Below the pieces are notes generated by a model. The model worked only from the letters and a program-made list of their open reading frames with translations, was not told where the DNA came from and made no database searches. Both the position numbers and the translations under genes were made by a program. From Liquorilactobacillus hordei DSM 19519 (GTDB lineage: Bacteria > Bacillota > Bacilli > Lactobacillales > Lactobacillaceae): 64,000 nucleotides of DNA. Shown here piece by piece: positions 482 through 25,095 of the stretch (its first letter is position 1; every line of letters starts with the position of its first letter). The DNA is taken from positions 1,674,001 to 1,738,000 of the forward strand of contig NZ_CP049303.1 of NCBI RefSeq assembly GCF_019443985.1, given 5' to 3'.

Positions 482-672
482 CACAATATTATGAAAGACA
501 GAGTTTGATATGAGTTTGCAAGGTTCCAAAGCTAATTCAAAATTACGAACATCGTGTGTACTTTGATATAAGCAATTCAAAGTTAGTTGAAACTTTTGAT
601 TTATGAAACACATTTATTCGTAATAAATAGAGGGGTCAAGGTCAGAATTAACTTTTGGCCCAGCCCCCTCTC
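482..672 (-). repeat. Interspersed hairpin/foldback repeat, copy A
   Basis: Non-coding stretch between clpX and gnd. Reading the minus strand, a GC-rich hairpin (629-671, arms AGAGGGG/CCCCTCT) starts just after the clpX stop and probably serves as its terminator. It is followed by an AT-rich body of about 140 bp. The body matches copy B (24922-25095) closely: shared blocks include TTCGTAATAAATAG, TTTTGATTTAT and AATTCAAAGTTAG in the same order. The rest of this 342-bp gene-free interval holds only the gnd leader. Confidence 0.75.
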
Positions 673-681
673 CAATTTATT

Positions 682-1929
682 TTATGAAGCTTGTTTGTCA
701 TCTAAAATAAGTTTTGGCATTTCATTACCATCTACACTTTTTTGATTAATAACTACTTGTGAAACATCAGTACGACTAGGTATTTCGAACATTACATCAC
801 GCATCGTATTCTCAACAATTGAGCGTAAACCACGAGCTCCTGTATTACGTTCGATAGCCAAAGAAGCTATTTTTTTGAGCGCATCTTTATCGAACTTGAG
901 TTTTACATTATCAAGTTCAAGTAATCTGCTATACTGTTTAACTAGTGCATTTTTTGGTTCTGTCAAAATTCTTACCAGATCTTCTTCTGTCAATTTCTCC
1001 AAAGCAGATAAGATTGGTAGACGTCCGATAAATTCAGGAATCAATCCAAATTTTAACAAATCTTCAGGAATAATTCGTTGCATTAAACTTATTTTATCGT
1101 TGTAATCATCCTTTGAATCAACACCAAATCCAATTGTTTTATCTCCTAGACGATTTTTCACCATTGTCTCAATTCCATCGAATGCTCCACCAACAATAAA
1201 CAAAATATTTGTGGTATCAATTTGGATAAACTCCTGTTGTGGGTGCTTACGTCCGCCCTGAGGTGGTACATTAGCAATAGTACCCTCCAATATTTTAAGT
1301 AGAGCCTGTTGAACACCTTCACCTGAAACATCACGTGTGATTGATACATTTTCGCTTTTTTTAGCAATCTTATCGATTTCATCAATATAAATAATTCCAC
1401 GTTCTGCCCGTTCAACATCAAAATCGGCACTTTGAAGTAACTTTAACAAAATGTTTTCAACATCTTCTCCAACATAACCGGCTTCTGTTAATGTTGTAGC
1501 ATCCGCAATAGCAAATGGAACTTGTAATATTTTCGCTAAACTTTGTGCTAAAAATGTTTTACCAGAACCAGTTGGACCTACTAGACAAATGTTACTTTTT
1601 TGTAACTCAGTTTCACTATCATCATCTTCAAGCGAAGCATTAACTCTTTTATAGTGATTATACACTGCAACTGCTAAAGTCTTTTTTGCTTGTTCTTGCC
1701 CAATAACATACTGGTTCAAAATATCAACAATTTCGCGTGGCTTAGGTACATCTGTCAATTCCTCTGTCACTTGGTCTCTGAATTCTTCATCTATAATATC
1801 TTTGCATAAATCTATACATTCATTACAGATATAAACACCAGGTCCCGCAACAATTTTTTTTACCTGATCCTGTGACTTACCACAAAAAGAACACATTACA
1901 GGTTCATTACTATCTGTATTCTCAAACAT
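682..1929 (-). CDS. clpX: ATP-dependent Clp protease ATP-binding subunit ClpX
   Basis: AAA+ unfoldase that recognises substrates and feeds them into ClpP. The N-terminal zinc-binding domain has Cys13, Cys16, Cys35 and Cys38. It is followed by Walker A GPTGSGKT, Walker B IIYIDEID and the IGF tripeptide (DKTIGFG) used for docking on ClpP. The 415-aa length is normal. An in-frame ATG nine codons upstream exists, but the start MFENTD at 1929 is preferred because AGGGGG lies about 7 nt before it and the family begins there. It is a single-gene unit with its own promoter and the hairpin of repeat copy A after the stop. clpP is not in this window. Confidence 0.97.
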
Positions 1930-1984
1930 ATTTAGCCCCCTAAAATTGTAACTCAAGTCTCGCTAGGTCTCTAATCATTCAATC

Positions 1985-2013
1985 ATTATATACGTGCTAT
2001 TGACTTTTGTCGA
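1985..2013 (-). promoter_or_regulatory. clpX promoter
   Basis: On the minus strand -35 TCGACA (2008-2013), 17-bp spacer, -10 TATAAT (1985-1990). Five of six bases match the -35 consensus and the -10 is perfect. Transcription would start near 1978, giving a leader of about 50 nt. No CIRCE or proper CtsR box is seen nearby. Confidence 0.7.
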
Positions 2014-2072
2014 TGACTTTACCTTATCAACAATTATCTTCCTCTTGAAAGAGTTGCACTTATCCGTTAGAC

Positions 2073-2114
2073 ACAAAAGAGCTGTGCCAAAACTATTGTT
2101 TTGGGGCAGCCCCT
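2073..2114 (-). terminator. tig terminator
   Basis: Hairpin with arms GCTGTGCCAAAAC and GTTTTGGGGCAGC (2081-2110), followed on the minus strand by TCTTTTGTG. It lies about 30 bp after the tig stop. The hairpin resembles those at 5985-6024 and 31656-31696. Confidence 0.75.
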
Positions 2115-2141
2115 TGCTAATCATGTATAATTCGTAAAAAG

Positions 2142-3446
2142 TTACTTATCTTCTTTCTTTTCACGAGTTTGTTTAGCAGAATCAGCGATTTCTTCAACCA
2201 CTTTACGTACTGCAATATCATGTTTTAACATTTCATCATTCAATGCTGAACGTACAGCAGTTTCTTCCATTCCGTATTGTTCTGCCAAGCTTTTAACTTC
2301 TTTAGCAACTTCTTCGTCACTAATCTTAATATCTTCTTTAGCCACGATAGCTTCCAAAACTAAATTAGTCTTTACACGTTTTTCAGAATCCTTTTCAAAT
2401 TGCTTATGCAAGTCATCTTCTGAAGAACCTGTAATTTGATAATACATCTCCGGAGTGATCCCTTGTTGTTGCATGCCCGCCATATATTGATCAATTTGAC
2501 GATGTACGTCATCTTCAATCATTTCTGCAGGAATATCACCAATTTTTGAATTGTTAACAGCAATATCAATAGCTTCATCTTGGATCTTTGCCTTTGCATC
2601 GGCAACTTTTTGTTCTTTCAATTCATCTTTAATCTTAGCTTTTAATTCTTCCAAAGTGTCGACTTCTTCATCAACATCCTTAGCAAAATCATCATCTAAT
2701 TCAGGCAGTTGTTTAGCCTTAACTTCGTGAATTTTAACATCAAAAACTGCTTCTTTACCTTGTAAATCTTCAGCTTGATAGTCTTTAGGGAAAGTAACAG
2801 TAACAGTAACTTCCTCACCAGACTTATGACCAACTAATTGATCTTCAAATCCTGGAATGAATGAATTTGATCCTAACTCAAGAGAATGATTTTCTGCTTT
2901 ACCACCATCAAAAGCAACGCCGTCAACCTTACCTTCAAAATCGATAATAACAGTATCACCATTTTCAGCAGCTTCATCTTCTTTGAGAACAAGTTCAGCT
3001 TGTTGTTGACGTAATTCTTCTAACTTGGCATCAATATCTCCAACAAGAACACGTGTAGAATGTGGTGTGACTTCAAGTCCTTTATAATCTCCCACTTCAA
3101 CTTCTGGTTCTACAGAAACTTCAGCTGTTAGTACCCATGGTTGGCCCTTCTCTAAACTCTCAACATCAACATTAGGTTGTCCAACTGGCTTAATAGCTGT
3201 TTCATCAACAGCAGCTGAATATGCATCTTGCAATAAAACATTCAAAGCATCTTGATAAAGTGCTTCTTCACCATACATTCTGTTAAAAATTTGACGAGGA
3301 ACCTTTCCTTTACGGAATCCTGGTACATTTAAATCCTTTTTAACACGAGCAAAGGCTACATCTAAGCCCTCTTTAATTTTATCTTGTGAAATTTCGAAAG
3401 TTAACTTTCCCTTATTTTCACTTTGTTTTTCCCATTTTGCAGACAT
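2142..3446 (-). CDS. tig: Trigger factor, ribosome-associated chaperone and prolyl isomerase
   Basis: Binds ribosomal protein L23 at the exit tunnel and shields nascent chains. The ribosome-binding signature GFRKGKVPR sits at residues 43-51. An FKBP-type PPIase domain follows around residues 160-245, and a long helical, highly charged C-terminal domain completes the 434 aa, the usual length. The ATG is preceded by GGAGGG at about 7 nt. It is a single-gene unit with its own promoter, immediately upstream of clpX, a neighbourhood common in Firmicutes. Confidence 0.97.
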
Positions 3447-3503
3447 TATTTTCCCTCCGCACGATAATTTTGTACAACCAATTTACTAATTGCATACTAA
3501 ATT

Positions 3504-3532
3504 AGTGTACCTTAGTTATATCGAATTGTAAA
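3504..3532 (-). promoter_or_regulatory. tig promoter
   Basis: Minus strand -35 TTTACA (3527-3532), 17-bp spacer, -10 TACACT (3504-3509); the leader to the tig ATG is about 50 nt. Confidence 0.65.
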
Positions 3533-3588
3533 CAATTACACCAAAAAAAGCTTTATATAACAGTTTCTTTTTTTCTAAATTATTTTTC

Positions 3589-3620
3589 TAAAAAAAAAAC
3601 TCGGAAAAATCCGAGTTTTC
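3589..3620 (-). terminator. tuf terminator
   Basis: Minus strand stem AAAACTCGGA / TCCGAGTTTT followed by a run of nine T (A9 at 3591-3599 on the plus strand), starting 11 bp after the tuf stop. A textbook intrinsic terminator. Confidence 0.92.
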
Positions 3621-3630
3621 TTTGTAAAAA

Positions 3631-4818
3631 TTAATCGTCAATTTCTGAAACAACACCAGCACCAACAGTACGTCCACCTTCACGAACCGTGAATTTAAGA
3701 CCTTTTTCAATAGCAACTGGAGCGATCAATTCAACTGTAAATGTAACATTATCACCAGGCATAACCATTTCTACACCTTCTGGCAATTCAATAACACCTG
3801 TAACATCAGTTGTATGGAAGTAGAATTGAGGACGATAATTTGAGAAGAATGGAGTATGACGTCCGCCTTCTTCTTTGCTCAAGACATAAACTTCACCCTT
3901 AAACTTCTTGTGAGTCTCGATAGAACCAGGAGCTGCAAGAACTTGACCACGTTCGATTTGATCGCGGTTAACACCACGAAGCAATGCACCAACGTTATCT
4001 CCAGCTTCACCTTCATCAAGAGTCTTACGGAACATTTCAAGACCAGTAACAGTTGTCTTCAAAGGTGCGTCTCTCAATCCAACGATTTCGATTTCATCAC
4101 CAACTTTAACAACCCCACGGTCAATACGACCAGAAGCAACAGTACCACGTCCTGTAATTGTAAATACATCTTCAACAGGCATCAAGAATGGTTTGTCTGT
4201 AGGACGAACTGGAGTTGGAATATATTCATCAACCGTATTCATCAATTCTTCAATCTTAGCAACTGCATCTGCATCGCCTTCAAGAGCTTTAAGAGCTGAA
4301 CCACGGATAACAGGAATATCATCACCAGGGAAATCATATTCGCTTAATAATTCACGAACTTCCATTTCAACTAAGTCTAACAATTCTTCATCGTCAACCA
4401 AGTCACACTTGTTTAAGAAGACAACAAGATATTCAACACCAACCTGGCGTGCAAGTAAGATATGTTCACGTGTTTGTGGCATAGGACCATCTGTTGCAGC
4501 AACAACAAGGATAGCACCATCCATTTGAGCAGCACCAGTAATCATGTTTTTAACGTAATCAGCATGTCCTGGAGCATCAATATGAGCATAGTGACGCTTT
4601 TCTGTCTCGTACTCGATGTGAGCAGTATTGATTGTAATACCACGTTCACGCTCTTCTGGAGCTGCATCGATTGTTGCAAAGTCTTGTTGTTCAGCCAAAC
4701 CTTTGTCAGCTAAAACTTTTGAAATTGCAGCAGTTAAAGTTGTTTTCCCATGATCAACGTGTCCAATTGTACCGATGTTTACATGGGGTTTTGTTCTTTC
4801 GTAATGTTCTTTTGCCAT
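3631..4818 (-). CDS. tuf: Elongation factor Tu
   Basis: GTPase that delivers aminoacyl-tRNA to the ribosomal A site. GHVDHGKT (G1), DAPGH (G3) and NKCD (G4) are present, followed by the two beta-barrel domains. The 395-aa product starting MAKEHYERT matches the family; an upstream in-frame ATG nine codons earlier lacks a ribosome binding site, whereas AGGAGG (4828-4833) precedes the chosen ATG. It is monocistronic with its own promoter and a strong terminator. Codons look highly biased, as expected for an abundant protein. Confidence 0.98.
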
Positions 4819-4892
4819 TAATACGAACCTCCTGTAGTTTTGCAAGAAAAATCCGCAACAAATATTAGTTTGCCGATAATCCTTTAAGTTTT

Positions 4893-4921
4893 ATTATACT
4901 ACTTCCAAGCAAAAATACCAA
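4893..4921 (-). promoter_or_regulatory. tuf promoter
   Basis: Minus strand -35 TTGGTA (4916-4921), 17-bp spacer, perfect -10 TATAAT (4893-4898). The leader is about 70 nt. Confidence 0.7.
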
Positions 4922-5028
4922 CATTTTTAGTACCCTGCAAAGAAGAATTCTTAAGCTATTATATAGATACCCGCCTAATTTGTAAATAGCTATTCAAAAA
5001 TAAGATTATTTCATTTCCATTTTATTTA

Positions 5029-5919
5029 CTATTGGCTCCATTCAACTAATACTTTTTCAAGTTTTAGTGCTAACTTTTGTTCTTCATTTTCATAAGAATG
5101 AATATTCTCCAACATCAATAATTCTTTCCATTTTTTCGAATTATCAATAATTCTTTCTTCGAATGGGTACAGTAAACTTAATTTTAGTTTAATCTCATTC
5201 CATCTCAACAAATCATTATTATCATTTTGCTCAGAGATTACTTGCTGTTTTAGATCACTGAATAAATTTGTTTCCTCAAATATATGAAGCTCAACAGGTC
5301 TGATACTGTATGTCTTACCATCAATAAAAAGAAATTTTTCCTCACGCTTATCCTGTAGTTGCCTCAAATCATCCAAAATACTGACTTTAATAAGTTGATG
5401 TACGTTTTCATCGCATAATATTTTTGGTGCTGCCTCCTTGAAATCATCTAAAGGCAGACTATAACTGTCCTGTAATGCCTTTCGCTGATGTCTACCTGAA
5501 AATAATCCACAATAAATTAATGCCTTTTTTATCTCTCTAGACTTTTTCTCATCGATTTTATCTTCTTCTTTTTTTATCAAATCAAAAAAATATTTTTTTT
5601 CATTAGCGTTCATATAACTACTAACTTGCAAATATAACTTATACGTTCCAATCACATCTTCGGCCATCATCCGAGCACGAATTAAAAGCTCAAACTTTTT
5701 ATTATCGGTTAAATATTCTATTAAATATTCACCAGCCAGTCTGCTAGCCTCTTTAAAATCATTTTGTCCATAACATGCTTGAAATAAAAAGAAATTAGTT
5801 CTGAAGTTTTTTCTCTTTAAATAACATTCCGCAAATAGCATCTGTGCCTTTTTGTAATTTTTATTCTCTAAGGATTCTACTCCATCAAAGAAAATCATTT
5901 GGTATTCTTTATCATCCAT
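5029..5919 (-). CDS. TPR-like hypothetical protein
   Basis: A 296-aa soluble, helix-rich protein with no signal peptide or membrane segment. The N-terminal third reads as tetratricopeptide-like helices (residues about 10-75, with alternating small and aromatic residues as in KKAQMLFAECYLKRKN). The C-terminal half is charged and unrecognised. The start ATG has AGGAGG at good spacing. It stands alone between the rnjB terminator and tuf. The function is unknown; similar proteins in lactobacilli are annotated only as TPR-containing, and a scaffolding role is the most one can infer. Confidence 0.75.
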   Translation of the reverse strand: MDDKEYQMIFFDGVESLENKNYKKAQMLFAECYLKRKNFRTNFFLFQACYGQNDFKEASRLAGEYLIEYLTDNKKFELLIRARMMAEDVIGTYKLYLQVSSYMNANEKKYFFDLIKKEEDKIDEKKSREIKKALIYCGLFSGRHQRKALQDSYSLPLDDFKEAAPKILCDENVHQLIKVSILDDLRQLQDKREEKFLFIDGKTYSIRPVELHIFEETNLFSDLKQQVISEQNDNNDLLRWNEIKLKLSLLYPFEERIIDNSKKWKELLMLENIHSYENEEQKLALKLEKVLVEWSQ

Positions 5920-5984
5920 ACTAATTACCTCCTAAAAAGGAAGAATAAAAGAGATTCACTTGTTAACTTAAGGTTTAACCACAT

Positions 5985-6024
5985 AAAAAGACTGTACCAA
6001 TCTTTCGTCATGGTCCAGCCTTCT
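5985..6024 (-). terminator. rnjB terminator (asd-dapA-rnjB operon end)
   Basis: Imperfect hairpin AGACTGTACCA / TGGTCCAGCCT (5989-6022), with a short T-rich run after it on the minus strand. It lies 25 bp after the rnjB stop and separates this operon from the TPR-like gene. Confidence 0.6.
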
Positions 6025-6046
6025 AGTCAATGTCTTACAACAGTTT

Positions 6047-7735
6047 TTATTTCTTTTTTGAAAAATGCTTATGCTGATTTATTTCCATGATAACTGGTAA
6101 AATCACAGGATGCCTCTTCGTATGTTCATATAAGAAATGATTGAGCTGATCACGCACATCTTGTTTTAAATGTCCCCAGTCAAATTCCTTGTTGTCTAGA
6201 TTTTTTTGGACGGCTTCTGTTACAATAGTTGCACTCTCTGCAATCAAATCACGACTTGTCTTAACATAAACAAAACCACGAGATGTAATTTGAGGACTAT
6301 CAACAATTTTTTTCTTTCTTCTATCAATTGTTACTACAGCAACAAAGACACCGTCTTCTGAAAGAATTTTACGGTCTCGCAAAACAATATTTCCTATATC
6401 TCCCACACCACTACCATCAATCAGAGTATTACCAACTTCAACCGAACTAGCTAATAATAACTTATCGTGATCATATTCAATAATGTCACCTTTAGACGTA
6501 ATGAAGATATTATCTTTAGAAATGCCAATTTCTTGTGCACATCTACTGTTAGCAGCCAACAGACGATATTCGCCTTGCACAGGAATAACGTACTTTGGCT
6601 TAAGTAAATTCATCATCAGTTGCAAATCATTACGGCTTGCATGACCAGAAGAATTTAACTCATCTGAGATAGCCTTAACATCTGCTCCTGCTCGATAAAT
6701 CATATTTCTAGTTTTAGCAACCGCAGTTTCCATAGCATGTGAAGGAGTTGTCGTAATAAAGACTAAATCTCCTTTTTTCAATGAAACATTTTTGTGCTTA
6801 CCCAAGGCCATTTTTTGCAATGATTTTAAAGGTTCACCTGAACGACCAGTTTCAAGTATAATCAAATTTTCATCAGGGATTTTTTCAATATCGGAAAGTG
6901 GTACCAACAATTCATCATTTGAAAGATGCAACTTTTCTAGCCTCAAAGCAGTATTGATTATTTCTTCAGCATCATGACCAGTTAAAATAATTTTACGATT
7001 GTTCTGTGCAGCTGCATCAAAGACTTGTTGTACACGCATTATATTTGAAGCAACACAGGCAACTACAATTCTGCCCTTCCGATACTCAAAATTCTCGTTA
7101 ATAAATTCATAGATTTCATGCTCAGCAACTGGTGTATTCGGATTTTCCGCATTTGCAGAATCACTTAATAAAGCTAAAACCCTGTTCTTCCCAATTTCAG
7201 CAAGTCTTCCAAAATCCGTACGATATCCGTTAGTTGCAGTTTGATCAAACTTAAAGTCACCAGTATATACGATACTTCCCTTGTCTGTTTTGACAACTAT
7301 TCCACATGATTCAGGTATAGAATGTGTCGTCTTGAAAAAGGAAACAGTTGCATTTTCAAAGTCAATTTCAGTTTGATCATTAACAACGTGAAAATCAGTA
7401 AACTTCTTTGTTTTTTCCTCATCATGTACTGTGATTTTCGCCAATTCAATTGTCAATTCAGTTCCAAAAACAGGAACATCGAACTCACTCAAGAAATATG
7501 GCAAAGCTCCAATTGCATCAGCATGTCCATGTGTTAAAAATACTCCAACAATTTTACTTGCGTTTTCTCTTAAAAAGCTAAAGTCTGGAATAACAGTATC
7601 TATTCCAAGTAATCCATTTTCAGGATACTTCAGCCCACAGTCTAAAATAAATATCTCATCACTCACCACAACAGCGTACATGTTCTTTGCATTTTCACGC
7701 ACACCACCAAGTGGAATGATTTTTATATCACTCAT
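6047..7735 (-). CDS. rnjB: Ribonuclease J2
   Basis: Metallo-beta-lactamase / beta-CASP RNase of 562 aa that in Firmicutes forms a complex with RNase J1. The zinc motif is degenerate: HGHADA at residues 69-74 replaces HxHxDH, and a second ligand is lost (PVQGEYR where the J1 here has PVHGEYR). These losses and the context identify J2, the weaker subunit, rather than J1 (29960-31636). GAGAGGTG precedes the ATG. It is the last gene of an operon, 15 nt after dapA. Confidence 0.93.
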   Translation of the reverse strand: MSDIKIIPLGGVRENAKNMYAVVVSDEIFILDCGLKYPENGLLGIDTVIPDFSFLRENASKIVGVFLTHGHADAIGALPYFLSEFDVPVFGTELTIELAKITVHDEEKTKKFTDFHVVNDQTEIDFENATVSFFKTTHSIPESCGIVVKTDKGSIVYTGDFKFDQTATNGYRTDFGRLAEIGKNRVLALLSDSANAENPNTPVAEHEIYEFINENFEYRKGRIVVACVASNIMRVQQVFDAAAQNNRKIILTGHDAEEIINTALRLEKLHLSNDELLVPLSDIEKIPDENLIILETGRSGEPLKSLQKMALGKHKNVSLKKGDLVFITTTPSHAMETAVAKTRNMIYRAGADVKAISDELNSSGHASRNDLQLMMNLLKPKYVIPVQGEYRLLAANSRCAQEIGISKDNIFITSKGDIIEYDHDKLLLASSVEVGNTLIDGSGVGDIGNIVLRDRKILSEDGVFVAVVTIDRRKKKIVDSPQITSRGFVYVKTSRDLIAESATIVTEAVQKNLDNKEFDWGHLKQDVRDQLNHFLYEHTKRHPVILPVIMEINQHKHFSKKK

Positions 7736-7750
7736 ACTTTCACCTCTCTT

Positions 7751-8623
7751 TTAAATATTTAATATGTTTACTAGTTGTTTAAATTGACTACTAGATAATC
7801 CCAAAATTGGCAACCTACAACCACCTACTTCAATCCCTTTATAGTTAAGAATAGCCTTCACAGGGCTGGGAGATGGTGCACTAAAGATAGCTGCCATCTT
7901 AGGTGTTAATTCACGCATTATAGAACCTGCTTCTTTGTATTTTCCTTGCTCTACAAAATTATACATTTTCTCAATTTTATCGCCATAAAGATGTGCTGCA
8001 ACAGAAATAACGCCTTTAGCACCGACAGTTTTAGCAGCTAAAGCATCTGCATCCTCACCCGTATATGTCAAGAAATTGTCCGGTGTTGCCGCTACAATTC
8101 GGCTTAAATTAACATTTCCAGTACAGTCTTTAATTCCAATAATATTTTTATTTTTTGCTAAAGTAGCAATTGTTGATACTTCCATAGTAACACCTGTTCT
8201 GCCAGGAATATTATAGATAATTATTGGTAACGAACATGCATCAGCAACTGCTGTAAAATGAGCAATCATTCCTCTTTGGTCAGGTTTATTATAATAAGGT
8301 ACCACGACTAATGCTGCATCAACACCGTTGATTTCTGCAACTTCATTGGTAAATTCTATCGTCTGTGCAGTGTTGTTAGACCCTGTACCTGCAATTACAG
8401 GCACTCTACCGTTAACAAACTCTACGGTCTTTTTAATCAATTCAATTTTTTCAGATTTAGTCAAAGTAGGTGCCTCGCCCGTTGTCCCTGAAACAAGCAG
8501 ACCCTTTGTCCCTGAATTCAGTAAATGATCAATTAATTTTTCAAGTCTTTCGTAGCTTACCTTACCCTCCTCATCGAAAGGTGTAACCATCGCTGTAATA
8601 ATTTCAGCATTATCAAATTTCAT
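7751..8623 (-). CDS. dapA: 4-hydroxy-tetrahydrodipicolinate synthase
   Basis: Condenses pyruvate with aspartate semialdehyde, the committed step to diaminopimelate and lysine. The Schiff-base lysine is K165 (IIGIKDCTGN) and the proton-relay tyrosine Y137 (IIYNIPGRTG); GTTGE at 46-50 binds the substrate carboxylate. At 290 aa it has full family length. It follows asd by 15 nt and precedes rnjB by 15 nt, so the three are co-transcribed. An AGGGGTTG ribosome binding site supports the start. Confidence 0.96.
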   Translation of the reverse strand: MKFDNAEIITAMVTPFDEEGKVSYERLEKLIDHLLNSGTKGLLVSGTTGEAPTLTKSEKIELIKKTVEFVNGRVPVIAGTGSNNTAQTIEFTNEVAEINGVDAALVVVPYYNKPDQRGMIAHFTAVADACSLPIIIYNIPGRTGVTMEVSTIATLAKNKNIIGIKDCTGNVNLSRIVAATPDNFLTYTGEDADALAAKTVGAKGVISVAAHLYGDKIEKMYNFVEQGKYKEAGSIMRELTPKMAAIFSAPSPSPVKAILNYKGIEVGGCRLPILGLSSSQFKQLVNILNI

Positions 8624-8638
8624 TATTTCAACCCCTAC

Positions 8639-9688
8639 TTAGTCTGGAACTCGCATTAAATTAAGTGCATGAAGTCTTTCTGCAATTTGTACAGAATTCC
8701 ATGCAGCACCTTTTAATAAATTATCAGAAACACAATATAAATGGAAAGAATTAGCTTGCTCATTATCTGCTCTAATTCTTCCAACGAATGTGTCCTTCTT
8801 GCCCTCAGCATTAACAGCTTGTGGATAAATCTGATTTTTAGGATCATCTTCCAATACAACCCCAGGTGCTTCCTTTAAGATAGATTGTAACTTTGCTACA
8901 TCAGCTCCGGATTTTTCTAATTCAAACCACACTGTTTCAGAGTGCGCAACAGCAACTGGAACACGTACACATGTTGCAGTAACTTGTAAATCTTGATCTG
9001 ACATAATTTTTTTCGTTTCATGAATCATTTTCCATTCTTCATGAGAGTAACCGTCGTCTTCAAAAACATCAATTTGCGCAAGTGGATTAAACGCAATTTG
9101 GTAATGCTTCTTATCACCTGAAACTGGTAAGATTTGTGGCTTATACTCTTCACCATTGAGAATTGCTTTTGTTTCATCATGTAATTCTTGAATCGCACGA
9201 TTACCTGCTCCAGAAACAGCTTGCATAGTTGTAACAATTACTTTCTTTAGTCCATAAACTTTACGTAGTGGCTCCAGAGCTACAACCATCTGAATTGTTG
9301 AACAATTGGGATTTGCAATTAATCCTTTATGTTCATAAAGGGCCTTTTCGTTAACTTCCGGCACAACTAATGGAACTCCCTCTTCCATCCGAAAAGCACT
9401 TGTATTATCAACTACAACTGCTCCACGCTTTATAGCTTCGGGAGCAAACTTCTTCGACACACCACCACCTGCAGAAAAAAGTGCTAAGTTTACATCATTA
9501 AAAGAATCGGGGACAAGTTCTTCAACAACTACATCTTCGTTCTTAAATTTCAAAACTTTTCCTGCTGATCTTTTTGAGGCTAAATACTTAACACTAGCAA
9601 TTGGTAACACTGATTCTTCTAGCATTTGAATCATTCGAGTGCCCACAGCACCTGTTGCACCCACAATAGCAACATTATATCCGTCCAT
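8639..9688 (-). CDS. asd: Aspartate-semialdehyde dehydrogenase
   Basis: Reduces aspartyl phosphate to the semialdehyde, which feeds dapA next door and also threonine and methionine synthesis. The N-terminal NADP motif is GATGAVG (10-16), and the catalytic cysteine is C129 in NPNCST. The 349-aa length is usual. It is the first gene of asd-dapA-rnjB, preceded by an extended -10 promoter. The leader is only about 28 nt, so no lysine riboswitch fits here. Confidence 0.96.
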
Positions 9689-9722
9689 ATGAAAAACCTT
9701 CTTTTTTTCTTATTGAAACATA

Positions 9723-9731
9723 ATTATAACA
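9723..9731 (-). promoter_or_regulatory. asd operon extended -10 promoter
   Basis: Minus strand TGTTATAAT (TGn plus perfect TATAAT). No good -35 is present at 17 bp, which is normal for extended -10 promoters. Confidence 0.55.
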
Positions 9732-9890: not shown

Positions 9891-9920
9891 GAACAAGAAC
9901 TAAATTCTTCTTATTATGAA

Positions 9921-15564: not shown

Positions 15565-15716
15565 CGACTTAACTTCGTGAATTCTTGAGTTGTAAACTAC
15601 ATTTGTCCAAAGTAAGTATGATATAAATGAGGATTTTACAAAAATTTGACTTATATCATATTTTTATATGAAATAAATAAATAAGTGAGGTCAAAATTTA
15701 ACTTTTGACCTCACTT
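15565..15716 (-). repeat. Interspersed hairpin/foldback repeat, copy F
   Basis: Fills most of the 300-bp gene-free gap between comEA and the DUF1304 gene. The hairpin (15683-15716) is a perfect 14-bp stem AAGTGAGGTCAAAA / complement with loop TTTAAC, and is followed on the minus strand by TTATTTATTTCATATAA and a more diverged AT-rich body. It is the likely terminator of the ylaN-to-DUF1304 operon. The body is only weakly similar to copies A and B. Confidence 0.65.
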
Positions 15717-15793
15717 CTCTTGTCACTTTGATTACGTGTAAAATTATTTATTTCAGCAGAAAACCTTTACAGCAATAAAGATTATTATTTTTA

Positions 15794-16162: not shown

Positions 16163-16181
16163 TAAACACTCCCCTTTTGAA

Positions 16182-17219: not shown

Positions 17220-17692
17220 ATAAGTTTATCCTTCAATGCCGCCTCAACATTTAACGGTACCAATCCATCTAAGTTTCCACCAAACTTCGCTACTTCTTTT
17301 ATCAAACTGGACGAAATATGACCATAGTCCTTATCAGTAGGAATGAAAAGTGTTTCTAACCCCGGACTCAATTTTTTATTAATTGCTGCTATATCTGTCT
17401 CATATAAAAAATCGCGACTACTTCTGAGTCCTCTTAGGATTACTTGTGCCTGTAAATCTTTAGCTGCCTGAACAGTCAAAACATTTTCACGCGACTCTAC
17501 TGCAACATTTTCGATATTCCGAACCTCATTTTCGATCAGTGCTACTCTTTCTACATTTGAAAAAAGCCCAGATTTATTGGTATTGGTCATCACTAATACA
17601 ACGATCTCATCAAAAATTAAAGAAGCTCGCTTAATTAAATCAAGATGTCCACATGTAATTGGATCAAAACTCCCTGGGAAAACTGCCTTCAT
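17216..17692 (-). CDS. coaD: Phosphopantetheine adenylyltransferase
   Basis: Penultimate step of coenzyme A synthesis, transferring AMP to 4'-phosphopantetheine. The nucleotidyltransferase motifs GSFDPITCGHLDL (N-terminus) and ISSSLIKEVA (near residue 130) are intact, and the 158-aa length is normal. It is two bases after rsmD and overlaps ylbL, conserved as a trio in Firmicutes. Confidence 0.97.
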   Translation of the reverse strand: MKAVFPGSFDPITCGHLDLIKRASLIFDEIVVLVMTNTNKSGLFSNVERVALIENEVRNIENVAVESRENVLTVQAAKDLQAQVILRGLRSSRDFLYETDIAAINKKLSPGLETLFIPTDKDYGHISSSLIKEVAKFGGNLDGLVPLNVEAALKDKLI

Positions 17693-17694
17693 AA

Positions 17695-18252
17695 TTATTC
17701 ACCCCTGTATCGGTAAATTACCACTTCTGTAATTCCATAATCAGCACGCCTAGTTAACTCAAAGTTCGGAATAATATCTGGCAACTGGGCAATCTGGTCA
17801 GTCTCACAAATAATAACTGCATTTTTATTAAGTAATTGTAATTCAACAATTTTAGTTAATAACAGTAGGATTTTTTGCTGTTTATATGGTGGATCTAAAA
17901 AAAGGTAGTCCACAGATATTTTCTCGGAATGTAATTTATTCAGTATCTTTTCTGCATCACTCTTAAAAACTGTAAATTTTTCTGGTTCTTTGGTAACCGC
18001 AATATTCTCATTAATTGTTTTAATTGCTTGATATTGACGATCTACCAAATATGCATGTGCAAGTCCTCGAGAAACAGCTTCAATACTCAACCCACCACTT
18101 CCTGCAAACAAATCAAGTCCCGTTCCACCCTCAAAGTATGGACCAATTATATTGAACATGGATTCTTTGACTTTATCAGTTGTTGGCCTCGTCTTCATAC
18201 CTGGAACTGCCTTTAATCTTCTCCCACCATAACTACCGGCTATAATTCTCAT
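17695..18252 (-). CDS. rsmD: 16S rRNA (guanine(966)-N(2))-methyltransferase
   Basis: SAM-dependent rRNA methyltransferase of 185 aa. The SAM-binding motif is GLDLFAGSGGLSIEAVSRG and the catalytic motif LFLDPPY. The start MRIIAGSYGGR at 18252 matches the family; an in-frame ATG 14 codons earlier would run into the end of ylbG. Overlapping or near-overlapping neighbours on both sides suggest tight coupling. Confidence 0.95.
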   Translation of the reverse strand: MRIIAGSYGGRRLKAVPGMKTRPTTDKVKESMFNIIGPYFEGGTGLDLFAGSGGLSIEAVSRGLAHAYLVDRQYQAIKTINENIAVTKEPEKFTVFKSDAEKILNKLHSEKISVDYLFLDPPYKQQKILLLLTKIVELQLLNKNAVIICETDQIAQLPDIIPNFELTRRADYGITEVVIYRYRGE

Positions 18253-18256
18253 AATT

Positions 18257-18559
18257 TCACTCTTTATTATTTTTATATTTTTCTCGATCTTCATCAGTCA
18301 GCTTATACATCTTGCCAACTGTATCTGCAAAACTTATTTCAACATCAGGCAAAGGAGAAACCATTACCTTTCTCACGTAGCGCATCCCCGAAAGCCTAGT
18401 AACAGTCTCAGGGACCTTTATTCTATCAGTATACAAGATTACATATTTCATCTTTCTTGAAACATAATGAATAGTGCCAAATCTGCGTAACTGTCTACTA
18501 TTCTTCAAATGATACAAGTAAACAATGACCCCTTGTCTCTCATTCAATTCTAAACTCAT
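18257..18559 (-). CDS. ylbG: YlbG family protein (DUF2129)
   Basis: A 100-aa cytosolic protein with the DUF2129 features: RQGVIVYLYHLKNSRQLRRFG at the N-terminus and YVILYTD / RYVRKVMVSP in the middle. No biochemical role is established. The start overlaps the preceding stop by one base and it is followed four bases later by rsmD, as in Bacillus. Confidence 0.9.
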   Translation of the reverse strand: MSLELNERQGVIVYLYHLKNSRQLRRFGTIHYVSRKMKYVILYTDRIKVPETVTRLSGMRYVRKVMVSPLPDVEISFADTVGKMYKLTDEDREKYKNNKE

Positions 18560-19704
18560 TAGTTTCCACCTTTGTTAATGATTATCACAAGCAAACCTTG
18601 ATCATAAGCAATTCCTATTTTTTTGGTTTTATTATCAATCAAATTATACCAGACATTTTTTTGTAATTCTGTATTCTCAAAAAAAGTTGTTGCGTTGTAA
18701 AAAGGAAAAATAATATACACCTCAGTATTTTTATTATCTAACCCACTATCCTGATACAATTTCTTCGAAAAGTTACTTGGATTTAAACTCAAGAAATTAT
18801 TTCGCCCAACATTCCCACTCGTAATATCTTTTAATAAATTAGCATAACTTTTCTTTAGATAATGTTTTGGATTCTTTTCTAATAGATTAATTATACTTTG
18901 GGCATTTTGTGTCAGCGAATCACCTATTGGTAATGTTGGATTTTCCACTACTATTCTTTTAGCATTAATCATCTGCATCAAATCATATGGAACCATAATA
19001 TCTAATTGATCCCAATTTGTTTCCCCCTGGTATTGTGAAGGAATTGGCGTTTGTGAAACAATCTGATAAATATTTTTTTTAAGAAGCATACCAGTATCTA
19101 AAAATTCCAGAGCTATTACTTTTTTAGAATCAGGTTGTAAGTAAGGTATTACATAACTTCCATTTTCAAAACCAATTAGGGGATGATTATTCAAATCATT
19201 TTCTGATAATTCAAACTGAAAATTCTCTTCACGATACGAAACTTCAAAATTTGCATATAAAGTTGACAATTTCAAGAGTTGTCTAATAGTCATGCCCACT
19301 TTTATTTTTGAATTGCTATCTGACATATCTCCAGCTAAAACTATCGAACATACCTTTTGTGTATATTGATCAATTCCAACCTTCAAATAATTAGATGAAT
19401 CAAGATTATAGAGTAACCATTTCACATTTATTGCACTATCCATAGTTTCTTGTGGTTGGCCAAACTTTTCTTCAAATTTATTAATGTCCATCCCAATATA
19501 ACTTGCAAACCCTTGTGTTTTAATACGCATTATTTTTGGTGTAGTCAACCTCGAACTTACTTTTTGTACTCTTTCAGTATTTCTTTGATGTTTATCCTTA
19601 GCATTTTTGTCACTATAAACAGCACTGCTGTACATGATAAACAACAAGAAGAGTAATACCAATATAAAATTTCGTATCGTTCTCAAGATAAATTTTATTT
19701 TCAT
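18559..19704 (-). CDS. Membrane-anchored CAP-associated-domain protein (YlbC-like)
   Basis: A 381-aa extracytoplasmic protein: transmembrane anchor about 8-28, then a region resembling the CAP-associated N-terminal domain (GMDINKFEEKFGQP, KVGIDQYTQKVCSIVLAG, about 70-205), then a C-terminal region whose last 40 residues (LQKNVWYNL, KKIGIAYDQG) recall the end of a CAP/SCP fold. The canonical CAP histidines and the GHRxN motif are not visible, so the C-terminal domain may be degenerate. It is in the position of Bacillus ylbC, two bases after pyc. Family placement is tentative. Confidence 0.65.
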   Translation of the reverse strand: MKIKFILRTIRNFILVLLFLLFIMYSSAVYSDKNAKDKHQRNTERVQKVSSRLTTPKIMRIKTQGFASYIGMDINKFEEKFGQPQETMDSAINVKWLLYNLDSSNYLKVGIDQYTQKVCSIVLAGDMSDSNSKIKVGMTIRQLLKLSTLYANFEVSYREENFQFELSENDLNNHPLIGFENGSYVIPYLQPDSKKVIALEFLDTGMLLKKNIYQIVSQTPIPSQYQGETNWDQLDIMVPYDLMQMINAKRIVVENPTLPIGDSLTQNAQSIINLLEKNPKHYLKKSYANLLKDITSGNVGRNNFLSLNPSNFSKKLYQDSGLDNKNTEVYIIFPFYNATTFFENTELQKNVWYNLIDNKTKKIGIAYDQGLLVIIINKGGN

Positions 19705-19706
19705 TT

Positions 19707-22700
19707 TTAGCCTTTTATGGGTTCTATTTCAACCAACAAATCTTGTGTTTCTAAAATATCTCCAGCCTTAACATAAATATGCGTTATTTTGCCATCTGTT
19801 GGTGCTTTGATCGTTGTCTCCATCTTCATCGCTTCGGTTACAATCAAAGGAACACCTTTCTTTACAACTTGCCCCTTTGAAACTAGTACACTTAAGACAG
19901 AGCCACTAAGAGTTGCCCCAATATGCTTTGGATTAGTTGGTTCAGCCTTCAAAATTTTCTTAATTTTGCCTTTTTTACTTTTGTCTTGTATCACAATTTG
20001 CTGATCCTGACCATTTACCACAAAGTATAGAATTCGCTTACCATCTTCATCCGCTTCACCAATTGAAGCTAGCTTAACAATCAAGGTTTGCCCTTTTCCT
20101 CGTTCAATGTGAACAGTTTCTTCCGTTCGCATTCCTTGATAGAACGTTGTCGTATCCAAAGGCGATAAATCTCCAAAGTTTTCTACCGCTTTTGTATAAT
20201 CAACAAACACATCTGGGTATAACAAATAACTCAATAATTCTTCTTCCGTAGGCAAATGCTTTAATTTTTCTCTTAATTCATTATTCTTCTTTGCGAAATC
20301 AATTGGCTCAGCTAAACTGCCAGGTCGGACTGTAATCGGTTTACGATCCTTTAGAACAACTTTTTGTAATTCTTTTGGAAATCCACCAACTGGTTGACCT
20401 AAGTCACCCGCAAAAAAGTTGACAACAGATTCTGGAAAATCCAAAGTCTTTCCACGTTCAAAAATATTCTCTGAATCTAATTTGTTTTGAATCATAAATA
20501 TTGCAAAATCTCCAACAACCTTTGAACTCGGTGTTACTTTTACAATATCACCTAACAACGCATTAACTTCTTTATAAGTTTTCTTAACTTCTTCAAAGTC
20601 TTTAATTCCTAAAGCTTTTGCCTGCTGTTGTAGATTTGAATATTGCCCACCTGGCATTTCTGTTTCATAAATATCTGTTTGTGGTGCTGTGATTCCGTTC
20701 ATGAAATCTTGATAAAAAGGCTTAACGCCTAACCAGTAGCGATTAATCTTCTCAACATTTTCAATATTAAGCTCAGGCTGTCGCTTATTTCCCGCCAACG
20801 CATAATACAAACTGCTCATACTTGGCTGACTTGTCGTTCCTGAAAGCGCACTTGCAGCAACATCTACAATATCAACTCCGGCTTTTGTAGCCTGCAAGTA
20901 TGTTGCTATCCCATTTCCAGTTGTATCATGCGTGTGCAAATGGATTGGAACATCTAAGTCTTCCTTCAATGTTGAAATCAATTCATAGGCTGCCTGTGGT
21001 TTAAGTAACCCAGCCATATCTTTAATTCCGATTATCTGTGAGCCCGCAGATACTAAATCTTTTGCCAATGTCCGATAATACTGTAAATCATATTTATGTT
21101 CTGCTGGATTTAAGACATCACCTGTATAACACATTGTTCCTTCGGCAATTTTGCCAGTGTCTCGAACAAACTGAATACTCTTTTCCATCTGTGTTACCCA
21201 ATTTAAACTATCAAAAATACGAAAAACATCGATTCCGTCTGTAGCACTCTTTTTAATAAAACGTTGCAACACATTATCTGGATAGTTTTTGTACCCAACG
21301 GCATTAGAACCCCTAAACAACATTTGTAATAAAGTATTTGGCATCACCTTACGAATTTTTTTAAGTCTTTCCCATGGGTCTTCATCCAAGAAACGATAAG
21401 CAACATCAAAGGTCGCTCCGCCCCAGACTTCTGCAGAAAATACATTAGGTAGTGCATTATCAAATGCTCTTGCAACTGGCATCATATCTTTTGTCCGCAT
21501 TCTCGTTGCAAAAAGGCTTTGATGTGCATCACGCATCGAGGTATCCGTCAACAATAATTTATTCTGTTGTCTTACCCAACTCATTGCTTCAGTTGCACCT
21601 TCATTGTCCAACACAGTTTTTGCATTTTTATGTTTGCTAGCAGCATCAAAATCATCTGTGATTTGAATTTTAGGAACAAAAATCTTTTCATGTCTTTCAG
21701 TACCTGGAAAACCATTGACCGTAATATCCGCAATATACTTTAATAATTGATTTGGTGTATTTTTAGGATGCGTCAAATGGAACAACTCGGGAGTTGAATC
21801 AATAAATGTTGTATGTGCTTTTCCAGAAATGAAATCTGGATGATTAATCACATTGCGCATAAAAGGAATATTAGTTTTAATACCTCTGATCCTAAATTCA
21901 TCTAAGACACGATTCATCTTCAAAACTGCACCGTTAAAGGTTCGCGCCTGAACACAAGCCTTAACTAACAATGAGTCAAAGTAAGGACTAATTACAGCGC
22001 CGGCATAGGCATTGCCACCATCCAAGCGCACTCCAAAACCACCTGGAGAACGGTAAGTTTCGATCTTACCTGTATCAGGCATAAAGTTATTCTCGGGATC
22101 TTCAGTCGTTACTCTGCACTGAATAGCGTGTCCGTGAAAATTTAATTTATCTTGTCTTGGAATTTCCAAATCGTTAAACAGATCTGCACCTGCAGCAATT
22201 AAAATTTGTGACTGAACGATATCAATACCTGTTATCATCTCAGTGATTGTATGTTCAACTTGGACACGTGGATTGACCTCAATAAAATAAAAGTCTGTAG
22301 CAGTAACTAAAAACTCAACAGTCCCTGCATTTTGATAATGCACGCTCTTCATCAAAGAAACAGCTGCTTCACAAATTTCTAATCTACGTTCATTACTTAA
22401 CGAACTTGGTGCTACTTCAATGACTTTTTGATGCCTTCTTTGGACCGAGCAATCACGTTCAAACAAGTGAACAACATTTCCGTGCTGATCAGCCAAAACT
22501 TGAACCTCAATATGTTTAGGATTCTTTAAATATTTTTCAATATATAACTCTTCATCCCCAAATGATTGCTTTGCTTCACTCTGTGCTCTGCTAAAACTTT
22601 CCTTAATTTCTGATTCATCATTTATAATTCTCATTCCACGTCCACCGCCGCCTAAAGCAGCTTTAACCATAATAGGATATCCGTGCTTCTTGGTGAACTC

Positions 22701-23135
22701 TTGAACTTCTTCTAAACTATAAACTGGTCCATCACTACCTGGAATTGTCTGTAACCCAGCATCGTGTGCAGCCTTTTTGGCTTTAACCTTGTCTCCAAAA
22801 ATTGCCAATTGCTCCTTAGTAGGACCAATGAATATTATGCCTGCCTCTTCACATTTTTGTGCAAAAGTCTCATTCTCAGCCAAAAAACCATACCCAGGAT
22901 GAACTGCATCCGCACCTGTTTCTTTTGCAACTCTGATAATATCATCTATATCTAAATAAGCTTCAATTGGTTTTTTACCCGCACCAATTTGGTAAGCTTC
23001 ATCTGCCTTAAATCGATGAACAGAAAACTCATCTTCTTTAGCATATACAGCAACAGTTTTCATCTTAAGTTCTTGACATGCACGAATTATCCGAATTGCA
23101 ATTTCGCCACGGTTTGCAATTAATATTTTTTTCAT
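19707..23135 (-). CDS. pyc: Pyruvate carboxylase
   Basis: Biotin enzyme that carboxylates pyruvate to oxaloacetate, giving aspartate for the DAP route in an organism without a full TCA cycle. The 1142 aa read in order: biotin carboxylase (1-455; GGGGRGMR ATP loop, EVNPRVQVEHTITE), carboxyltransferase (about 520-800; DTSMRDAHQSLFATR), tetramerisation region, and BCCP with the biotinylation site EAMKMET near the C-terminus. The ATG at 23135 (MKKILIANRGE) fits the family; the upstream in-frame extension is not conserved. It follows ftsW by about 70 bp. Confidence 0.97.
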   Translation of the reverse strand: MKKILIANRGEIAIRIIRACQELKMKTVAVYAKEDEFSVHRFKADEAYQIGAGKKPIEAYLDIDDIIRVAKETGADAVHPGYGFLAENETFAQKCEEAGIIFIGPTKEQLAIFGDKVKAKKAAHDAGLQTIPGSDGPVYSLEEVQEFTKKHGYPIMVKAALGGGGRGMRIINDESEIKESFSRAQSEAKQSFGDEELYIEKYLKNPKHIEVQVLADQHGNVVHLFERDCSVQRRHQKVIEVAPSSLSNERRLEICEAAVSLMKSVHYQNAGTVEFLVTATDFYFIEVNPRVQVEHTITEMITGIDIVQSQILIAAGADLFNDLEIPRQDKLNFHGHAIQCRVTTEDPENNFMPDTGKIETYRSPGGFGVRLDGGNAYAGAVISPYFDSLLVKACVQARTFNGAVLKMNRVLDEFRIRGIKTNIPFMRNVINHPDFISGKAHTTFIDSTPELFHLTHPKNTPNQLLKYIADITVNGFPGTERHEKIFVPKIQITDDFDAASKHKNAKTVLDNEGATEAMSWVRQQNKLLLTDTSMRDAHQSLFATRMRTKDMMPVARAFDNALPNVFSAEVWGGATFDVAYRFLDEDPWERLKKIRKVMPNTLLQMLFRGSNAVGYKNYPDNVLQRFIKKSATDGIDVFRIFDSLNWVTQMEKSIQFVRDTGKIAEGTMCYTGDVLNPAEHKYDLQYYRTLAKDLVSAGSQIIGIKDMAGLLKPQAAYELISTLKEDLDVPIHLHTHDTTGNGIATYLQATKAGVDIVDVAASALSGTTSQPSMSSLYYALAGNKRQPELNIENVEKINRYWLGVKPFYQDFMNGITAPQTDIYETEMPGGQYSNLQQQAKALGIKDFEEVKKTYKEVNALLGDIVKVTPSSKVVGDFAIFMIQNKLDSENIFERGKTLDFPESVVNFFAGDLGQPVGGFPKELQKVVLKDRKPITVRPGSLAEPIDFAKKNNELREKLKHLPTEEELLSYLLYPDVFVDYTKAVENFGDLSPLDTTTFYQGMRTEETVHIERGKGQTLIVKLASIGEADEDGKRILYFVVNGQDQQIVIQDKSKKGKIKKILKAEPTNPKHIGATLSGSVLSVLVSKGQVVKKGVPLIVTEAMKMETTIKAPTDGKITHIYVKAGDILETQDLLVEIEPIKG

Positions 23136-23208
23136 TAGAATCCCACTTTCTTGAATTGAATAATGAATCTCTGAGATCACAAAAAATGCTATTAATAAAT
23201 TAGACCTT

Positions 23209-24369
23209 TTATTTTCGATTTTTCTTTTGATTAATCGAAATATTTATTACTATTCCTAATGCAAGTGATAAAACAATCATACTTGAACCACCATAAGATA
23301 CGAATGGAAAAGTAACCCCTGTAATTGGCAATAATCCATTAACTGCACCAATATTAAACAAGGTTTCAACTCCCATGAAGGTTCCAATTCCATAACAAAT
23401 CATCGTTTCATATGAACTATTTGCCCTAATTCCAATTAGGAAAATCCGCAAAATAATCCAAGTAATCAAAAGTAAAACAACCATAACACCTATTGCTCCA
23501 AGCTCTTCACTAATAATTGCTATAATAAAATCTGTATATGGTTCAGGTAGGTAACCCCTTTTTTGAACACTATTACCAAGCCCTACTCCAAATAAGCCTC
23601 CATTACTTATTGCATAATAAGAATTAATTAATTGCTGTCCACTCGTTGAGGAAACCTTAAAGGGATTATAAAATGCGGTTAATCTAGCATACATATACTC
23701 GATTTTTGTTCCTTTTAAGGGAGCTGGATCCCAAAAACGTAAAAGTTGAACCACAACTATTATTGAGCCCAAAATTCCTGACAAGTAAAGTAATGACTTG
23801 CGATAATCTCTGCCACTTGCAAAATACATTAACAAAACAATAAAGGCATTGATTGAAAAGCCACCCAAATCAGGTTCTATCAAAACGAGACACAGCAAGA
23901 TGACAACTAAAACAGCTGGCTTTCGACTAGGCTTGATATTCAGAGTACTTACTGAGTACTCACGATTAGACACAAGTTGTGCCATAAATAATACTAAATA
24001 TAATTTACAAAGCTCTGCTGGTTGAAAACTAAACAATTTTAAGTTAATCCAGCCATTAGCGCCATTAACTGCAGTTGTAAAAAATTTGGCATACAGCAGC
24101 AAGATTACCAGCGCAAAAAAACCAATCATTATAAAGTTACGGTGAGCTAACTTCTTAGTTGGAATCATTATTGAAAAGAAAATGCAACCTAAACCCATCA
24201 CCACATAAATTAGTTGTTTCATTAGGTACGTATTAGTAGACGCACCAGCATACGAGAGATTTATTGAACTGGCAGAATACACCATAACTGCACCAATACA
24301 ACACAAAACTATGTAAGGTACAAATAAATAAAAATCAAAATACCTCATCTTATCTCTAAATTTTCTCAT
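23209..24369 (-). CDS. ftsW: Peptidoglycan glycosyltransferase FtsW
   Basis: SEDS-family polymerase that works with the septal transpeptidase; 386 aa with about ten membrane segments. Diagnostic stretches are VMVYSASS, FQPAELCKL and GVTFPFVSYGGSSM. It is assigned to FtsW rather than RodA because of the ylaN-ftsW-pyc order seen in Bacillus; the dcw cluster itself (42-60 kb) has no SEDS gene. It lies 12 nt after ylaN. The ribosome binding site before its ATG is weak (AGGATCT), suggesting translation coupled to ylaN. Confidence 0.92.
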   Translation of the reverse strand: MRKFRDKMRYFDFYLFVPYIVLCCIGAVMVYSASSINLSYAGASTNTYLMKQLIYVVMGLGCIFFSIMIPTKKLAHRNFIMIGFFALVILLLYAKFFTTAVNGANGWINLKLFSFQPAELCKLYLVLFMAQLVSNREYSVSTLNIKPSRKPAVLVVILLCLVLIEPDLGGFSINAFIVLLMYFASGRDYRKSLLYLSGILGSIIVVVQLLRFWDPAPLKGTKIEYMYARLTAFYNPFKVSSTSGQQLINSYYAISNGGLFGVGLGNSVQKRGYLPEPYTDFIIAIISEELGAIGVMVVLLLITWIILRIFLIGIRANSSYETMICYGIGTFMGVETLFNIGAVNGLLPITGVTFPFVSYGGSSMIVLSLALGIVINISINQKKNRK

Positions 24370-24381
24370 GACATTCAGATC

Positions 24382-24657
24382 CTATTCATCCTCTCCCACT
24401 GAAACATAAATGCTTGAAAGTAGATGTTCTAAATCCTGAATCATTTGTTGAGCTTCATTCAGAGTGATCAAGCCACAGCGTTCAGCTAAATGAACTTCTT
24501 TTGAAAATCCAAAAAGTTGTGTATCTGCGACTTCTTCAAAAGCAGGGCACTGAGACAAGCACAACAAATTTCGTTGTTTATCTAGTAACACCCGAATTTT
24601 CTCAGAATCAGCTTGCAGAATTTTCAGCATTTCCTGTCTCGTTACAATTTCCTGCAA
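24382..24657 (-). CDS. ylaN: YlaN family protein (DUF1507), TTG start
   Basis: A 91-aa helical protein with the family hallmarks (DSEKIRVLLDKQRNLLCLSQCPAFEEV). Bacillus and Staphylococcus YlaN binds iron and acts on Fur, and the gene is essential or conditionally essential; whether that holds here is inference. The start is a TTG with AAGGGGG eight bases upstream. It is the first gene of the ylaN-ftsW-pyc-ylbC-ylbG-rsmD-coaD-ylbL-DUF1304 operon, which has no internal gap above about 75 bp. Confidence 0.9.
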   Translation of the reverse strand: MQEIVTRQEMLKILQADSEKIRVLLDKQRNLLCLSQCPAFEEVADTQLFGFSKEVHLAERCGLITLNEAQQMIQDLEHLLSSIYVSVGEDE

Positions 24658-24687
24658 TATTGCTGCCCCCTTCCTAAATATAGGGTA

Positions 24688-24716
24688 ATTATAGCATACT
24701 AGTTTTTTTCTTGAAA
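24688..24716 (-). promoter_or_regulatory. ylaN operon promoter
   Basis: Minus strand -35 TTTCAA (24711-24716), 17-bp spacer, extended -10 TGCTATAAT (TATAAT at 24688-24693). Confidence 0.65.
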
Positions 24717-24921
24717 TATACTGGCAGAACTAAGTGTTAAATTGGACTCTGCCTCTGTGTTTTATTATGTAACCAAAATTCGTATTTTTCAATTAATTTA
24801 TATCAAAAACATCATTATTTGCTTTGTTTTACGAACTCTATTATTTTATTAGAGACATTTATGAAATAAAAAGAAACATTCTTCATTATTTATTTTGCTA
24901 AAGGTCCAACATATCAACCCA

Positions 24922-25095
24922 TAATAAATAGCGAGGCTAAATCAAAATTAACTTTTGATCCAGCCTCGCTATTTATTACGAATGAATGTATTTTATAAAT
25001 CAAAATTCTCTGTCTAACTTTGAATTACTCATAGCAAAACAATCACTATGTTCGTAATTTTAAGTTGATACTCAAAATTCTAACCCTGATTACAT
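24922..25095 (+). repeat. Interspersed hairpin/foldback repeat, copy B
   Basis: Lies in a 455-bp gene-free interval between ylaN and typA. A perfect 17-bp outer stem (24922-24938 with 24962-24978) encloses TCAAAATTAACTTTTGA; the body then contains TTCATAAATC-like sequence and a second foldback with CATAGC/GCTATG and AATTAC/GTAATT arms (about 25025-25062). In reverse orientation the body matches copy A over roughly 110 bp. The 3' end is adjacent to the typA stop. The left half of the interval (24720-24920) holds a diverged hairpin (GGCAGA/TCTGCC, 24723-24752) and otherwise nothing recognisable. Confidence 0.78.

Follow-up and report, generated by a model that had tools for sequence, protein, structure and literature searches.

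The 64,000-nucleotide stretch of Liquorilactobacillus hordei DSM 19519 analyzed here (the window; contig NZ_CP049303.1) carries an intergenic repeat next to clpX and again next to typA. A sequence-only reading had described these two stretches, copies A and B, as non-coding near-duplicates on opposite strands, each with a terminal hairpin, and had likened them to non-autonomous mobile or BOX/RUP-like elements, in a family that might be undescribed. The likeness of the two copies is well beyond chance: the local alignment of reverse-complemented copy A with copy B scored 111, whereas 1000 first-order Markov randomisations of B reached no more than 32, and their best BLAST piece (ungapped-type, within the window) spans 93 bp at 83% identity (E 1e-21). 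The shared sequence blocks quoted for the pair lie in order in both copies, a hairpin stands at one end of each, and neither overlaps a listed open reading frame (ORF) of at least 90 amino acids. The pair is, however, only part of the family, as the window holds four further copies (one intact, one diverged and two decayed; Table 1) and the genome many more.

The covariance model used to define the family (R1) was built from 23 of the first 30 copies fetched from the window genome, leaving out four that bear an insertion sequence (IS), one that is internally deleted, one without a hairpin and one with a poor hairpin. The profile search of the genome proposed in the sequence-only reading showed that the repeat is not confined to the loci first noted, with at least 150 R1 matches and at least 58 matches in DNA searches, reverse-strand matches to the same hairpin included. 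Stretches fetched around 138 of the 150 R1 matches (omitting the 12 weakest, and two stretches near a contig end) gave 115 loci with at least 86 copies whose unit scores 30 bits or more, a lower bound, none of them inside an ORF. The main contig (C3) seems to close with a second copy of its first ~30 kb, from about 2,209,600 onward (99.9% over 3,165 bp, two places), probably an untrimmed circular overlap; the two agreeing start and end places were counted as one.

A full copy is about 170 bp long (full-length R1 matches are about 160–180 bp) and consists of a terminator-like hairpin of the GAGGCTGGGTCAAAAGTTAAATTTTGACCCAGCCTC type, some 20 AT-rich bases and an imperfect palindrome ending in GACTTATGTCACACTC. 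Palindromic units in G013, a genome of the same genus, stand in tandem (L286–L291) with a period of 133–137 bp, mostly two per hairpin. The possibility that the TACGAATA-like end is a ComX box or a riboregulator was set aside, with no test aimed at it, as the copies do not conserve this motif.

Table 1. Copies of the repeat in the window, with adjoining genes. Bit scores are from R1.
Feature	Position	Strand	Remarks
Copy A	497-667	-	3' of clpX; hairpin 632-667, palindromic unit 497-631; 112 bits
clpX	682-1956	-	gene beside copy A
Copy B	24933-25103	+	3' of typA; hairpin ~24933-24967, palindromic unit ~24968-25103; 137 bits
typA	25113-26960	-	gene beside copy B
Third copy, most intact	60565-60735	+	between mraZ and the gene upstream; 170.5 bits; RNA fold z -7.4
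IS entry point CTT in GA-CTT-ATG, no IS here	60718-60720	+	counted on the R1 alignment and IS flanks elsewhere
Diverged copy	42333-42512	+	95.7 bits
Decayed copy	36771-36880	+	hairpin and unit start kept, inner part gone; 61 bits, 75 model positions skipped
Decayed copy	15610-15717	-	hairpin and unit start kept, inner part gone; 54 bits, 65 model positions skipped

Related species differ in which sites are occupied. Among named relatives, Liquorilactobacillus mali is nearest by MraZ (97%), followed by Lactobacillus sp. UCMA15818 (96%) and L. cacaonum (92%). DNA searches matched 10 of 13 same-genus genomes (none in G001, G005 and G011), and one genome of another genus had a single match. At mraZ, both the window genome and L. 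satsumensis (184 bits) have the element in the spacer, apparently through independent events; two L. mali genomes and L. cacaonum had no match there, and sp. UCMA15818 only a 26-bit match at a plain terminator. The spacer 3' of typA is occupied at the same place in four of the 14 genus genomes (G000, which is the window genome, G006, G007 and G012); G013 has a separate insertion within it, and G004 and G008 scored 23–27 bits at native terminators. Downstream of clpX, R1 scored 112 bits in G000, 64 bits in G013 (internally deleted) and 52 bits in G012; in G006 and G007 (33–34 bits) a terminator hairpin stands beside only a small part of the unit, and the other nine of the 14 genomes gave no match.

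Longer alignments revealed the same kind of difference. Twenty-two R1 matches in 64–68 kb of sequence syntenic in five genomes defined 13 sites, after three further matches on the opposite strand of hairpins were dropped; one site was common to four genomes, seven were found in one genome only, and none in G002. Over 264 kb of the window genome compared with G012, collinear flanks were found for 20 of 22 strong copies, and 17 of these 20 had no counterpart. The check for empty sites thus shows that these are not universally conserved ancestral spacers, the mraZ, typA and clpX spacers each being empty in some relatives. Together with the many loci, such empty sites bear out the earlier description of a dispersed, non-coding family of mobile type.

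We also identified two copies in G012 (L394 and L396) that lie inside tnpB-like genes with paralogues at 90–95%, which indicates what the insertions removed. At L394 the element replaced about 26 bp, whose counterpart is TGCCTAAATTAGGCA in L395 and L397, with one change in L396, L398 and L399. At L396 it replaced about 20 bp, the counterpart of which is CACGAACTAGATATTCGTG in L395 and L399, whereas the stem is absent in L397 and L398. Neither insertion generated a target duplication. Counted as stems of at least 6 bp with loops of up to 10, stem-loops over 1,380 bp number four in L395, four in L397, two in L398 and eight in L399, and two of the four in L395 are the targets. As judged from these paralogues, the replacement of a stem-loop is well supported in both tnpB cases.

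Target duplications, for which the sequence-only reading had proposed to look, are not a constant feature. The survey of direct repeats had 28 rows, one of them an empty match (L104), leaving 27 copies with both ends; one of the 27 has a convincing flanking repeat of 8 bp, CTTCCTCG, at a site in G012. A second 8-bp repeat, in the L289 tandem array, lies off the element ends. These data bear on the possibility that the element is a classical miniature inverted-repeat transposable element (MITE), bounded by terminal inverted repeats and mobilized in trans by a DDE transposase, with an 8-bp duplication as the result. Its ends are indeed alike, the hairpin arm GRGGCTGTGACAAAAGTY resembling the right end GAGAGTGTGACATAAGTC once the latter is reverse-complemented, and at the G012 site hairpin and unit were inserted as a block between the CTTCCTCG copies. 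However, 26 of the 27 two-ended copies lack a convincing duplication, both tnpB-like genes lost target sequence, and no autonomous partner came to light in an analysis that did not search for DDE families, which leaves a classical MITE an unlikely explanation.

Spread of the unit by recombination (gene conversion) between similar terminator hairpins, rather than by transposition, is less probable still. Native hairpins at some empty sites (mraZ; G012 joined position 3237) resemble the element's hairpin, and the hairpin often outlives the unit, as it does near clpX in G006 and G007. The tnpB coding targets, however, have no evident similarity to that hairpin, and the block insertion took place at a site without a terminator. 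We put slightly less faith in a relative of the repetitive extragenic palindromic (REP) sequences moved by a Y1 transposase (RAYT or IS200/IS605). Like REP, BIME and REPIN, the element consists of many short, palindromic, dispersed intergenic repeats that attract ISs, and PF01797 is matched in 8 of the 14 genus genomes; its unit is nonetheless much longer and joined to a separate hairpin, and several many-copy genomes (G013, G006, G009 and G010) have no PF01797 match. A regulatory RNA or compound terminator held in place by selection is hardly credible, despite the stable RNA folds of two window-genome copies (z -4.9 and -7.4) and the covariation of the hairpin, as sister species differ in its presence, the typA, clpX and mraZ sites are empty in some, and the palindrome decays.

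The position of the copies relative to genes is also biased. Convergent spacers hold 35 of the 86 copies, tandem spacers 44 and divergent spacers 7, compared with 20, 92 and 22 of 134 background spacers from the same simple ORF caller. The convergent excess (35/86 versus 20/134) has a p of 2.6e-5 and the divergent deficit a p of 0.10. Within tandem spacers, 34 of the 44 copies lie closer to the 3' end of the upstream gene.

We consider it probable (roughly 0.72) that the repeat is a mobile but non-autonomous element of ~170 bp, whose two stem-loops are independent and which inserts by replacing a small pre-existing stem-loop in the manner of EFAR repeats. Its direct support comes from the dispersed copies, their species-specific presence, the two-stem architecture, the duplication-free replacement in two events and the excess in convergent spacers. 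The element would insert in place of a small existing stem-loop, and copies would gather at gene 3' ends because terminators are the commonest stem-loops in the genome. The element's hairpin would then stand in for the lost terminator and be kept while the palindrome decays. A structure-dependent exchange of folded hairpins could drive the replacement, perhaps on single-stranded DNA or at an extruded cruciform that a hairpin nuclease opens and for whose repair the element is used. Such a structure-dependent exchange is a tentative proposal, and a dedicated enzyme acting in trans is equally open. If the element does replace stem-loops, hairpin-for-hairpin replacement could be tested in harmless food bacteria whose genomes hold many copies, and the process would account for the presence of such repeats at gene ends with little harm.

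Several observations weigh against stem-loop replacement as the general rule. The target stem is weaker or missing in three of five and two of four tnpB paralogues, so that the state of the real targets, and with it the role of stem-loops as a general target, is inferred. A coarser fold test of 14 empty sites (one of them, a tnpB copy, not a proper empty site) was not positive overall, with two of the 14 folding better than 95% of random spacers, and the G012 site with the 8-bp repeat has no clear target hairpin. No mover was found, PF01797 having been searched in the genus genomes and DDE families not at all. The structural evidence is also mixed. Both-side changes among the 23 aligned copies affect 7 of 15 pairs in the hairpin and 6 of 38 in the palindrome, and the covariation score exceeds that of 499 of 500 shuffles, but further pair types are no more numerous than in shuffles and sliding the structure by two columns gives an equal count of both-side-change pairs (13). 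With the caveat of the slid structure, we read the hairpin as under selection and the palindrome as decaying. Furthermore, when the unit of one of the RNA-folded copies is treated as DNA, its fold has no more than a weak advantage over shuffles (z -1.5, 19 of 200). Of 46 copies, 18 have a run of A before the hairpin, equivalent to a T-run for a gene on the opposite side, and 5 have a T-run after it, which makes termination of transcription by the element's hairpin plausible for many copies and demonstrated for none. Finally, R1 has no match to the Enterococcus faecalis copy L439, which is linked to the family only through BLAST of L433 (81% over 110 bp). We lowered our confidence in an EFAR-like element because the target stem is present in some tnpB paralogues only and because R1 misses this E. 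faecalis copy.

Venditti et al. in 2007 are said to have described EFAR as ~170-bp repeats of E. faecalis with two stem-loops, which reportedly integrate at stem-loop sequences of 24–37 bp that are mostly deleted in the process. The element resembles EFAR in its length of ~170 bp, its two independent stem-loops, its dispersed intergenic copies and, in the two resolved insertions, the apparent loss of stem-loop targets, and probably homologous 163-bp copies occur in Enterococcus records; it differs in its host genus and in a central palindrome diverged from that of the enterococcal copies. By behavior and architecture, rather than by proven homology to the named EFAR sequences, the family would be of EFAR type. 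Contrary to the suggestion that the family might be undescribed, its kind has probably been described: length, two-stem architecture, insertion behavior and enterococcal relatives all point to EFAR. We found no report of the element in Liquorilactobacillus in a search of open-access papers. BOX elements have a repeatable inner module, which the tandem units of our element recall. Like BOX and RUP of Streptococcus pneumoniae, it is a short, structured, dispersed intergenic repeat, a likeness in form for which no kinship was shown, no BOX or RUP sequence having been compared; unlike them, it has no constant target duplication. EFAR is named among the MITEs of enterococci (PMC3733652), and the Efa-1 repeat of E. 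faecalis, 163 bp long (PMC2267715), is perhaps the same element.

The palindrome is itself a target of an IS of 1,473 bp with a rve-type transposase, present in 16 distinct copies in the window genome. The transposase has the HTH_21, rve and rve_2 domains by which we assigned it to the IS3 family, and plasmid relatives of the IS bear IS3-family labels. All 16 copies contact the element, and 15 have it on both sides, at one exact site and in one orientation. The left flank is GACTT in 15 of the 16; the right flank is CTT in 14, TTT in one and CTC in one, followed by the element's end. In the sixteenth copy (C3:432663) the left flank is instead a fragment of the hairpin, apparently due to a deletion. 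Six short remnants of IS ends also adjoin the element's end. In G008, the one IS copy (88% protein identity) occupies the same site, and G012 has no IS match at the search threshold, yet carries scars of IS ends in three units. The other arm of the palindrome holds the same eight bases inverted, yet of the 16 IS insertions whose left flank was read (15 in the window genome, one in G008) none lies there. The idea that the repeat is a tail of the IS was rejected, since IS-free copies have intact ends and the IS lies inside the element with a duplicated CTT. On this pattern of flanks, the palindrome is a site-specific landing pad of an IS3-type IS. A different IS (49% identity, three copies) has R1 matches of 21–36 bits nearby, none seen at the GACTT site, its flanks not having been read. 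One IS copy (L281 375-2477) is interrupted by an unrelated transposase gene (DDE_Tnp_1, DUF772), producing a fused frame of 700 amino acids.

Such targeting has precedents among the REP-targeting ISs, including IS1397 and ISKpn1 in palindromic units (PMC1525189). As in those cases, an IS3-type IS interrupts a repeated palindrome, always at the same point; the host here is Gram-positive, the IS sequence is another one, and the target is the terminal stem of a long EFAR-type palindrome. If the landing-pad reading is right, a Gram-positive host would here offer a naturally occurring IS whose target is both precise and near-neutral.

Relatives of the element also occur outside the genus. At E<=1e-6, R1 matched 29 of 151 Lactobacillaceae genomes, 23 of them outside Liquorilactobacillus, and 14 of 40 genera in all; with stricter filters and E<=1e-5, it matched 6 of 295 order-level genomes, the window genome included. 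All 20 outside loci that were fetched match R1 (44–83 bits), and the 13 that were read have a hairpin and a palindrome, most with ends like GAGGCTGTGACAAAAGT and ACTTATGGCACACTC. BLAST with the 163-bp copies of G202 and G237 recovered 121 plasmid records, 98 of them from Enterococcus, and 12 of the 121 cover at least 80% of the query. R1 scored 44–48 bits on the copies of G202, G237, L. plantarum and E. faecium (47 bits for the last two), and the copies of E. faecium and E. faecalis each fold into two stem-loops. These relatives are consistent with one superfamily of stem-loop-replacing elements running through the Lactobacillales (Lactobacillaceae and Enterococcaceae), spreading by swapping for terminators and colonized in Liquorilactobacillus by an IS3-type element almost confined to it. 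We give even odds to this broader view, in which the pair would be a Gram-positive counterpart of IS1397 in the palindromic units of E. coli.

The same 163-bp copies matched 133 records in the phages collection; of these, 113 bear the label Listeria phage and 20 Enterococcus. No match to the Liquorilactobacillus copy was found in that collection. The Listeria phage-labelled records (OR846783-OR849275 and others) are either short or lack annotation, and may be bacterial contigs under a wrong label. One scan of the viral_contigs collection returned seven loci, of which R1 confirmed one (L401, IMGVR_UViG_2728369706_000002), and another scan returned none; the copy in L401 is intact (186 bits) and may lie where a prophage adjoins its host. 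Corresponding stretches of mobilizable water-kefir plasmids from L. hordei TMW 1.1822 (L356) and L. nagelii TMW 1.1827 (L357) carry the same copy, next to an IS1182-family transposase and a SIS-domain gene, making such plasmids a possible route between species.

At gathering thresholds, Rfam had nothing at the element, either in the window or at loci L281, L023, L441 and L439, and reported T-box leaders only. The sole match of the window is a T-box leader (RF00230, 96 bits) at 45392-45617 on the reverse strand.

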